Positions 2,143-5,504 of a stretch of 6,416 bases of DNA are shown piece by piece; position 1 is the stretch's first letter, and every line of letters begins with the position of its first letter. The position numbers and the translations under genes are program-made. The notes below the pieces were generated by a model. It worked only from the letters and a program-made list of their open reading frames with translations, searched no databases and was not told where the DNA came from. The DNA is taken from NCBI GenBank assembly GCA_938039765.1, contig CALHTV010000038.1:1-6416 (forward strand). The letters run 5' to 3'. The DNA comes from an uncultured Dictyoglomus sp. GTDB lineage: Bacteria; Dictyoglomota; Dictyoglomia; Dictyoglomales; Dictyoglomaceae.

Positions 2143-2766
<624 letters not shown>

Positions 2767-2778
2767 TAACTCTGCTAT

Positions 2779-2785
2779 GGGGGAG
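2779..2785 (+). promoter_or_regulatory. Ribosome-binding site that decides the murA start
   Basis: GGGGGAG lies 6 bases before the GTG at 2792, an ideal spacing. The alternative in-frame ATG at 2777 overlaps this tract and has no purine-rich site before it; the still earlier ATG at 2702 is buried in the conserved end of upp. Confidence 0.7.
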
Positions 2786-2791
2786 CTTGTT

Positions 2792-4072
2792 GTGAGAAAA
2801 GACAAGTTTATTATCGAAGGGGGACATAGACTTAGAGGAGAAATAGATATATGGGGAAGTAAAAATGCCTCTCTGCCTATAATGGCAGCTTCTATACTCA
2901 ATTGTGGGGACCTAATTTTAGATAATGTTCCTCCTGTAAAGGATAATATTACTATGGCCGAAATACTTAAAGTATTAGGTTTGGAAGTAGAATTTCTTGA
3001 AGGGGACAAAGTACATATAAAGGGAGAACCTAAGGGATACAGAGCTCCTTATGAACTGGTATCTAGAATGAGAGCTTCTTTTGAATTAATGGGACCTTTG
3101 CTTGCTCGTTTTGGAGAAGCAGAGATTCCTTATCCAGGTGGCTGTAGAATTGGTTTGAGACCTGTCGATCTTCACATTAAAGGTTTTGAAAGTTTAGGGG
3201 CTGAAGTTAGTGTTGAAAAGGGTTATGTATGTGCAAGAGCTAAAAAAGGATTAAAAGGGACAAAGATACATCTTGATAAGCCTAGCGTAGGAGCTACAAG
3301 AAATATTATGATGGCTGCGGTCTTAGCAGAAGGAGAAACAGTAATTGAAAATGCTGCTTGCGAACCTGAAGTGGTTGATTTAGGGAATTTTTTGAGGATG
3401 ATGGGAGCGGAGATTGAAGGATTAGGAACCTCTACTATACACATAAAAGGTAAAAAGGAGTTGAAATCTGTTAATTATTATAAGGTTATTCCTGACAGAA
3501 TCGCTGCTGGTACTTTTATTATTGCTGGGGTTATGTTGGGAAAAGACCTGATTGTAAGAAATGTTGAGCCCGAGCATCTTCAAAGTTTGTTTATCAAATT
3601 AAGGGAAGCGGGGGTTGAGACTTTACAAATAAAAGATAAGGAGGTAAGGATTAAAGCAGCTAAAAACTGGAAAGGAATTGAAGTCACTACTATGCCATAT
3701 CCTGGCTTTCCCACAGATCTGCAGCCTCAAATGATGGTTTTTTTGAGCCTTGCACAAGGAAGTAGTCTGCTTGTGGAAACAGTTTTTGAAAATAGGTTTT
3801 TACATGTAGGTGAGCTTTTACGTTTAGGAGCCAAGATAAGTATAGATGGAAGAACAGCCCTAATTCAAGGAGTGGATAAATTAAAAGGTGCTCCTGTGGA
3901 GGCAACTGATCTTAGAGCTGGAGCAGCCTTAGTGCTTGCAGGATTAGTGGCTGATGGAATTACTGAAGTTTTAGATGTAAGTGAACATATTGACAGAGGT
4001 TATGTGGCTTTAGAGGAAAAACTATCTGCTTTGGGGGCTAAGGTTAAGAGAGTTTATGAAGAAAGTAATTAA
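2792..4072 (+). CDS. murA: UDP-N-acetylglucosamine 1-carboxyvinyltransferase (MurA)
   Basis: MurA transfers the enolpyruvyl group of PEP to UDP-N-acetylglucosamine, the first committed step of peptidoglycan precursor synthesis in the cytoplasm. Started at GTG 2792 it has 426 residues, within the normal range, and begins MRKDKFIIEGGHRLRGEI as family members do. Conserved residues, numbered from that start, are Lys24-Asn25 in GSKNASLP, Arg94 in MRASFELMGPL, catalytic Cys118 in PGGCRIGLRPVDLH, Asp309 in PGFPTDLQPQ, Arg375 in DLRAGAALVLAGL, and Arg402 in HIDRGY. Cys118 matches the cysteine alkylated by fosfomycin, so intrinsic target resistance by a Cys-to-Asp change is not expected. Both halves of the EPSP-synthase-like fold are complete. 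The gene starts 25 bases after upp, and its last 17 bases overlap the next gene. EPSP synthase is excluded by the MurA-type cysteine loop and HIDRGY ending. Confidence 0.95.
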   Translation: MRKDKFIIEGGHRLRGEIDIWGSKNASLPIMAASILNCGDLILDNVPPVKDNITMAEILKVLGLEVEFLEGDKVHIKGEPKGYRAPYELVSRMRASFELMGPLLARFGEAEIPYPGGCRIGLRPVDLHIKGFESLGAEVSVEKGYVCARAKKGLKGTKIHLDKPSVGATRNIMMAAVLAEGETVIENAACEPEVVDLGNFLRMMGAEIEGLGTSTIHIKGKKELKSVNYYKVIPDRIAAGTFIIAGVMLGKDLIVRNVEPEHLQSLFIKLREAGVETLQIKDKEVRIKAAKNWKGIEVTTMPYPGFPTDLQPQMMVFLSLAQGSSLLVETVFENRFLHVGELLRLGAKISIDGRTALIQGVDKLKGAPVEATDLRAGAALVLAGLVADGITEVLDVSEHIDRGYVALEEKLSALGAKVKRVYEESN

Positions 4073-5504
4073 GGTTTTAATTTCAATTTTTATTGGACTG
4101 TCTCTTTTAGGAGGAGGTTTGTACCTCACTATTCCTCTATGGTTTAAGCCTTTAGTTTTTTATATTCTAAATGAGAATTTTGGAAACGTTATATATGTGG
4201 AGGATATTAAATATGTTTTTCCTAATAAGATTGCTATTTCTACTTTAGGAGTAGCAAATCTTGCCTCTTTTTCTAATGTGAATGTTCTTATTCAAAATCC
4301 TATTAAACTATCTCCTATTATTTTAGAACTAGTTAAACCCAAAATAATCGTAATTCATAATGAAAAAGGAGAATGGACTTTTCCTCCTATTCCTGGTATT
4401 GATACCTCCAAAGATAAAGGTGTTTCTAATATTAATGTGGAAATAAGGGCTAATATAAGGGATGGAATAGTTGTTGTTAGAGACCTCAAATTGAAGAAAG
4501 ATATTGAACTCTCAAAAGTTAATGGAGAACTATTCTGGAAAAATCAGGTAGTTTCGTATACTGTTTCTACATTAATAGATGGACAATCAATAAAAAGCTA
4601 TGGGAATTATGACTTTTCAAAGGAAAAAGGAGATTTAACTTTTGAGTTTCAAAAAGCTTTTGCAGAAGTTTGGGGACCATTATTTTTACCTGAGATTTTC
4701 ACAATTGAGAAAGGACTTTTTACAGGTTGGTTTAATACAAAAGGTGAAAAAGGTAATTGGAAAGTAAAAGGAGAAATTGAGGCCTATAATGCAGAGGGTA
4801 GAATTTCTCCTTTTAAGAGTAGATTTACTAACATTTCTCTAAAATTGAAAATAGATGGTGAAAATATAAATATTACTGAGGGAAAAGGAAATCTTAATGA
4901 TTCTGCAATAAAGTTTTCGGGTAAATTAATGCCTATTCCTCTGTTAGACATAAACTTTAAGAATTTCGATTTAGAAGCCTTGGATAAAGAATTTTTTGAA
5001 GGAAATGCTAAGTTGAAGGGAAAAGTAGAGGGAGAGATTATTGTGTCGGATTCTTGGGAGAAGCCTTTAGTCAAAGGGAATTTAACTGCCAAAAATATTT
5101 CTATATATGATTTTGAATTTAAAGAAATAAAAATAACCACAGACTCTAATTTGCCTTCAATAAGTGCAGAGATTTTAGGAAAAATGGAATTAGGGAACAT
5201 AAAAGGTAAAGTTTCTTTTAATTTAGAAAACAATATGGGTAGTTTCAATATAGATGGAGAAAATATTAATGTTGAAAAAATAGCTGAGATTTTCAATCTT
5301 CCTAAAATGGAAGGTAAAGGGAGCGTATCAATTAAAGGACTAAAAGATAAAGAATGGAAAATATATATAAGTGGAGTGATAGAGAACGGAAGATTGGGAG
5401 ATTATTCTGCAGAAAGAATTCTGTTTAATTTTGAGAATGAAGGAAAAGATCTGAATTTTCATAAACTTTTAAAGATTAAGAGTTTTTTTTTCCTAAAAAG
5501 TTAA
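4056..5504 (+). CDS. AsmA/TamB-like envelope protein, frame-0 part ending just after a T9 run
   Basis: This reading frame encodes 482 residues. The N-terminus MKKVIKVLIS is basic and leads into a hydrophobic segment (about 5-30), a likely signal anchor with no clear cleavage site. The rest is predicted to lie outside the inner membrane and is made of alternating short beta-strand-like segments with Gly/Asn/Asp turns. Recurrent units near 218-265, 313-360 and 415-461 follow a pattern of G-x-V-x-G, a Trp or Lys-Pro, a glycine-containing strand, then a strand-rich tail. This resembles the AsmA/TamB/DUF748 group, long beta-groove proteins implicated in lipid transport to the outer membrane; the assignment rests on overall character, since the family has few invariant residues. 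The ATG overlaps murA by 17 bases; AAGGT at 4040-4044 or the purine tract at 4046-4052 could be its ribosome-binding site. Frame 0 ends in SFFFLKS at a TAA (5502-5504), directly after nine T's, and the protein evidently continues in the -1 frame. Confidence 0.75.
   Translation: MKKVIKVLISIFIGLSLLGGGLYLTIPLWFKPLVFYILNENFGNVIYVEDIKYVFPNKIAISTLGVANLASFSNVNVLIQNPIKLSPIILELVKPKIIVIHNEKGEWTFPPIPGIDTSKDKGVSNINVEIRANIRDGIVVVRDLKLKKDIELSKVNGELFWKNQVVSYTVSTLIDGQSIKSYGNYDFSKEKGDLTFEFQKAFAEVWGPLFLPEIFTIEKGLFTGWFNTKGEKGNWKVKGEIEAYNAEGRISPFKSRFTNISLKLKIDGENINITEGKGNLNDSAIKFSGKLMPIPLLDINFKNFDLEALDKEFFEGNAKLKGKVEGEIIVSDSWEKPLVKGNLTAKNISIYDFEFKEIKITTDSNLPSISAEILGKMELGNIKGKVSFNLENNMGSFNIDGENINVEKIAEIFNLPKMEGKGSVSIKGLKDKEWKIYISGVIENGRLGDYSAERILFNFENEGKDLNFHKLLKIKSFFFLKS

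Follow-up and report, generated by a model that had tools for sequence, protein, structure and literature searches.

In the thermophilic Dictyoglomaceae, a tamB-like gene, the product of which is predicted to span from one cell membrane to the other, very probably contains a conserved, programmed frame switch at a run of T residues, as judged from comparison of its sequence across the family. The gene is split between two reading frames at this run in five of the six species in which the site is covered, in two genera and including two single-contig genomes; in the sixth species the frames are fused and the run is kept. Slipping at the run would likely yield a full-length protein beside a short one, and transcriptional slippage, giving transcripts with ten U residues (U10), is probably the main mechanism. 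The window analyzed here (6,416 nucleotides) is the entire contig C38 of draft genome G000, which is 72% complete.

The frame junction and its conservation

A first-pass annotation of the window had described a frame-0 stop just after a T9 tract, and a -1 frame that opens after a TAA and stays open to the window end. The coordinates of stop and run proved exact (Table 1), and the -1 frame was confirmed, with 312 codons lacking a stop from 5480 to the window end; the two frames overlap by 22 nt (5480-5501). T9 is indeed the longest homopolymer of the window, as had been claimed, and its sole run of at least eight (other runs of at least seven: one A7 and one T7). The 482-aa open reading frame (ORF) starts within the last codons of a murA-like ORF (2702-4072), and the upstream genes in the window appear, from their translations, to be phosphatase-, rpiB-, glyA-, upp-, and murA-like.

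Table 1. Features at the frame junction, in window positions
Feature	Position	Strand	Basis or remark
Frame-0 ORF, short form, 482 aa	4056..5504	+	predicted N-terminal membrane helix and beta-strand groove
TAA closing the -1 frame just 5' of T9	5477..5479	+	read from sequence
T9, proposed slip site	5483..5491	+	within AG-T9-CC (5481-5493), invariant in G000, G001, G003, and G005
T TTT TTC, slippery heptamer for -1 ribosomal slippage in frame-0 register, alternative to T9 as slip site	5486..5492	+	sequence; motif class in PMC4066793
TAA, stop of short form, 10 nt past T9	5502..5504	+	read from sequence
-1 frame, putative continuation of the TamB-like protein, open up to contig end	5480..6416	+	ORF translation, relatives, Pfam

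Seven family genomes from two genera were compared. The short form was matched in all seven, and the junction is covered in six: G000, G001, and G003 of the first genus, and G004, G005, and G006 of the second. G003 and G001 are single-contig genomes (1,959,987 and 1,855,560 bases, respectively), and the G000 gene, which ends at the contig end, enters whole-gene comparisons only up to that point. At the junction, all six species carry T8-9 (T9 in G000, G001, G003, G004, and G005; T8 in G006); these six runs share one ancestor and are not independent cases. The first-pass annotation had proposed that a conserved run with a conserved frame change in relatives would support programmed slippage, and this is the pattern found in the five split species. 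The homologous short ORFs of G003 and G001 are 60 and 59% identical, respectively, to that of the window, and the frame-0 homologues of G003, G001, G005, and G006 (460-479 aa) have a common end point, with the stop 10 nt past the run in G003, G001, and G005, as in the window, and 11 nt past it in G006. In G006, T8 is followed by CCC, and the arrangement is otherwise that of the other split species. The four complete copies of the -1 frame comprise 1,152 (G003), 1,150 (G001), 1,128 (G005), and 1,104 codons (G006). The frames overlap by 19 nt in G001, G003, and G005, because a stop in the -1 frame immediately precedes the run, and by 46 nt in G006.

In G004, T9 is kept, but the sequence past the run differs by a net one base, and a single frame of 1,624 codons results. 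Of the alternative frames past the run, -1 closes after 11 codons and +1 after 7; slippage in G004 would therefore yield a short form. The G002 contig ends within the short form. The N-terminus of this copy (L121, G002:C19) matches protein cluster P0016, the end of which (GFFLKS) suggests a shorter or interrupted run there. A search of contigs for the gene matched only L008, which equals the G005 contig in length, and the two pattern matches among viral contigs included no relative.

Wider sampling of proteins gave the same end point. A profile search with five short forms, in which about 8,000 best candidates were scored under a length filter that admits no fused proteins, recovered 13 clusters of 460-482 aa. 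In all 13, the short form ends 0-4 residues past a Phe pair, although for P0015 and P0017 a contig end is possible instead. P0006 is the cluster of the window itself; P0005, P0008, and P0009 correspond to G001, G005, and G006 (P0009 being, by reading, the G006 short form except for one residue), and P0016 to G002 by its N-terminus. The eight further lineages (P0007, P0010-P0015, and P0017) are known from protein alone, and not from the DNA run. With the G004 protein as query, and again about 8,000 best candidates scored, P0018 (100% identical, 1,619 aa, from another source) and three distant proteins were found. In a tree of 16 short forms, which has a midpoint root only, each of the two genus-level clades contains split forms, and G004 is placed within the second-genus clade at an unresolved fork.

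The run at this junction is unlikely to be a chance occurrence. Each of the seven family genomes has 7-16 matches to T9 on both strands, and T10 has no match in five of the seven (G000, G001, G003, G005, and G006). The string AG-T9-CC occurs once each in G000, G001, G003, and G005, at this junction only, and is absent from G002, G004, and G006. Across G000, G001, G003, and G005, no other invariant stretch of the gene is as long (13 nt, the next being 10); within the first genus alone, the next-longest stretch is 11 nt. When G006 is added, invariance at the junction drops to 8 nt, below a 10-nt stretch elsewhere in the gene. FFF has no second occurrence within the available parts of the six proteins.

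Among 63 flanks of other sites with T9 or longer runs in the seven genomes, one looks, by reading, like a frame junction. This site (L087 1196; G004:C1:145685) is a T10 in the gene just upstream of scpB, which is probably scpA; in G004 the gene is divided into open stretches of 76 and 156 aa, whereas each of the six relatives has a single uninterrupted frame of 221-242 aa. Neither piece has a Pfam match, and an error, a mutation, or a further case of slippage would explain the arrangement. Splits at runs are therefore not unique to tamB; the L087 split, confined to one species, is such as an error or a relic would leave, and that of tamB is shared. A second kept T9 (L083 1205, plus strand; L060 and L069 1190, minus strand) was found in all three first-genus species that cover its site and in none of three second-genus species. 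It sits between the domains of an AMIN and Amidase_3 gene, where either of the other two frames meets a stop after 3-7 codons, and an AMIN-only protein would therefore result from slippage; the G006 copy of this gene (L126) has one in-frame TGA inside the matched stretch.

A TamB-like protein encoded in two parts

The two parts are best read as one protein, as the first-pass annotation had suspected, because G004 encodes both in its one frame and because the -1 part carries the Pfam TamB domain in G003 and G001. Against the curated Pfam cut-off of 22.4 for this domain (PF04357), the -1 parts of G003 and G001 score 63 and 73 bits, respectively, and the fused G004 protein scores 100.6. The two parts in the window have no Pfam match; the contig ends ahead of the TamB domain. 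Of 14 short forms compared with Pfam, 12 have weak DUF748 matches and six have TamB matches. The gene that follows encodes POTRA and Omp85 domains in L008 (G005), and a POTRA domain in L009 (G003).

An AlphaFold2 model of the short form (mean pLDDT 79) has a helix at residues 2-45 and repeated strands after it; pLDDT falls below 50 in the final 16 residues. The short form, as modeled, would have the N-terminal membrane anchor and beta-groove that mark the TamB family. A Foldseek search of this model against the PDB gave nothing significant (best E 0.18); the TamAB complex was at rank 4 (probability 0.38), behind apolipoprotein B and others.

Proposed slippage at the run and alternative readings

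In the proposed scheme, translation of frame 0 would meet the stop just past the run, and a slip at the run would send part of the output into the -1 frame. RNA polymerase would add one U at the run (or drop two), such that a fraction of transcripts would have both parts in-frame. The short form (about 460-482 aa) would comprise the membrane helix and the beginning of a groove of the lipid type, and the long form (about 1,560-1,625 aa) would end in the TamB domain, which in the E. coli counterpart docks into the outer-membrane Omp85 protein TamA. By analogy with E. coli TamB, the short form would fail to extend to the outer membrane and the long form alone could do so. The slip rate would set the number of complete bridges built.

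E. coli RNA polymerase slips on runs of at least seven Ts, on T in preference to A, with insertions outnumbering deletions by about three to one (PMC6260861). Many bacteria show signs of selection against runs once these reach nine bases (PMC1088944). At the tamB junction, no stable RNA structure stands out 3' of the run among 18 pseudoknot-free folds (z -1.8 to 1.5). Polymerase is favored because the run exceeds what ribosomal slippage needs and because no structure stands out after it. The gene has two sequence properties of programmed slippage genes: the run lies at the frame overlap, and both frames are under selection and conserved across species.

The purpose of the switch is a separate matter. 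It is conceivable, on somewhat less than even chances, that the short form has a selected role. We likewise put forward only tentatively a broader reading, by which the two-product tamB would be ancient and family-wide, with polymerase slippage setting the ratio of short form to full bridge, both products selected, and the logic inverted in G004, which is fused but has kept T9. That the split has persisted in two genera speaks for a ratio of short to long form that matters, and G004 shows that the split can be lost; because G004 lives with a fused frame, a short form made by slippage is not required everywhere. Against a selected role can be set a reading that may well be correct, though it falls short of an even chance: the run would be a relic, in which an old indel is tolerated since slippage happens to rescue it, the long form being the one product of importance and the short form a waste product. 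That G004 manages with a fused frame is consistent with this, and disrupted genes that slippage would restore have been described (PMC1088944). The lone split at T10 beside scpB in G004, against six one-frame relatives, indicates that such splits arise in the family. Yet a single indel would mend the split permanently, and the split is found in two genera and 13 protein clusters; moreover, a relic would bear on the purpose of the switch and not on its existence.

Programmed -1 ribosomal frameshifting, in which tRNA-Phe would re-pair one base back at U_UUU_UUC (U_UUU_UUU in G006), is unlikely to be the main route, although several features fit it. All five split species have the heptamer in register (T_TTT_TTC in G000, G001, G003, and G005; T_TTT_TTT in G006), and U_UU.U_UU.C and U_UU.U_UU.U are among the motifs that exceed 0.10% frameshifting without stimulators in E. 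coli, the former motif being one that IS elements use (PMC4066793). A Shine-Dalgarno-like AAGGAG lies 10, 13, and 16 nt upstream of the run in G006 (L017), G004 (L016), and G005 (L008), respectively, with a chance expectation of about 0.02 per place. This hexamer encodes a conserved EGE/GEG stretch, and may be protein sequence only or a ribosomal stimulator. However, none of the three first-genus species has a Shine-Dalgarno-like element; no structure stands out in the pseudoknot-free folds; G004 carries AAGGAG though it needs no shift; and 7 nt would do for the ribosome, yet T9 and its flanks are invariant. The ribosome may contribute beside polymerase slippage, possibly mainly in the second genus, since the U_UUU_UUC heptamer is in-frame and AAGGAG is present in all three species of that genus.

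A further reading, which we regard as very improbable, is that of two separate proteins, with the second ORF starting independently after the stop. Databases do list the parts separately, including the pair P0007 and P0002, each on a contig of 1,207,433 bases. However, when ATG, GTG, and TTG were scored, the position of the first start codon in the -1 frame was not conserved, falling at alignment codon column 152 in G003, 50 in G001, and 13 in G000, and the stretch ahead of it is, to judge by its substitution pattern, under purifying selection. Between G003 and G001, the first 149 aligned codons of the -1 frame are 75% identical (pN 0.13, pS 0.55), and the first part of the gene is 70% identical (pN 0.15, pS 0.55); in comparison with G000, the first 150 codons are less constrained (46-47% identity, pN 0.32-0.33, pS 0.59-0.63). 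Because the -1 frame in G003 runs for 152 codons without a start and is nonetheless under purifying selection, it is most simply reached from upstream. An independent start at ATG, GTG, or TTG was rejected on the start-codon positions and the selection ahead of them.

Phase variation, by which the DNA run would gain or lose a T and so switch the long form on or off, has even less in its favor than an independent start, despite the location of this homopolymer in a cell-envelope gene. T9 is present in all three first-genus species that cover the site. A search with the G003 -1 part over a range of 633-2,016 aa, which allows fused proteins, gave four matches and no fused one among the best 7,989 candidates scored. 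The gene was rejected as phase-variable: run length does not vary among these three species, and no on-state was seen among the four matches. A sequencing error or recent frameshift mutation, which the first-pass annotation had kept as a strong alternative, is hardly credible: although the homopolymer lies within a draft metagenome-type assembly, and sequence errors proved to be the cause of a Deinococcus tamB split in three ORFs (PMC11219805), it is rejected because relatives carry the same run and frame change, in genomes that are separate, belong to two genera, and include two single contigs.

Earlier reports and known slippage systems

In the open-access literature searched, no report was found of transcriptional slippage or of this frameshift in Dictyoglomus, with frameshift papers judged by title or the start of the abstract, nor of slippage in TamB, judged mainly by title. 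A 2016 review names neither Dictyoglomus nor TamB in the portion consulted (PMC5009743). The GeneTack survey covered two Dictyoglomi genomes, but motif clusters entered its analysis only with five or more genes (PMC3711429). In the D. turgidum genome paper, Dtur_0814 is given as TamB, followed by two BamA genes, and the consulted portion of that paper does not mention Dtur_0813 (PMC5167688); by gene order, Dtur_0813 and Dtur_0814 would be the two parts. The tamB frame switch would add to the known class of slippage genes, with no earlier report found in our searches. If it is real, a thermophile family relies on slips in copying to obtain the full-length product of an envelope gene, where databases list two proteins, and the proven slippage genes are extended to a membrane lipid bridge, in a case kept across two genera. 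One could then also test for a short partner form in the working of TamB-type bridges, such as has been shown for TssM1.

E. coli TamB is encoded in one reading frame, whereas the T run divides the Dictyoglomaceae tamB between two frames. The two have in common an N-terminal membrane helix and a beta-groove, as predicted for the Dictyoglomaceae protein, and a C-terminal PF04357 domain, with an Omp85 gene adjoining in the Dictyoglomaceae; in E. coli, the C-terminal domain folds into the TamA barrel, and the groove is reported to carry phospholipid (PMC12800296).

Among slippage genes, the closest case is that of Citrobacter rodentium tssM1 and Yersinia pseudotuberculosis tssM3, which undergo transcriptional slippage (PMC4256274). 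TssM is likewise an inner-membrane protein of an envelope machine, its gene has a stop a few bases past a homopolymer, and slippage gives a long form with a C-terminal domain that contacts an outer-membrane partner (PMC4256274). In C. rodentium, slippage is about 20-25%, and both forms and their ratio are required; the Yersinia homologue slips the opposite way, as G004 would (PMC4256274). The run in tssM is A11, compared with T8-9 here, and slippage sites are rare among tssM genes (PMC4256274), whereas the tamB run is kept in all six family species; slippage in tssM was measured (PMC4256274), whereas the tamB switch is read from sequence. In Shigella mxiE, U is added, as proposed for tamB, at a T run to join two ORFs into a longer product, but this gene is a plasmid-borne regulator of another protein family, with slippage proven experimentally (PMC1088944). 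Thermus thermophilus dnaX shares with tamB a thermophilic host, a nine-base run, and two products from one gene; its run is A9, and slippage there yields the shorter form (PMC1088944). There are also dnaX genes in which the longer subunit is the one that needs recoding (PMC3711429). Among dnaX homologues, one lineage takes the polymerase route and another the ribosomal one (PMC1088944), and the two tamB genera may, by analogy, likewise differ in route.
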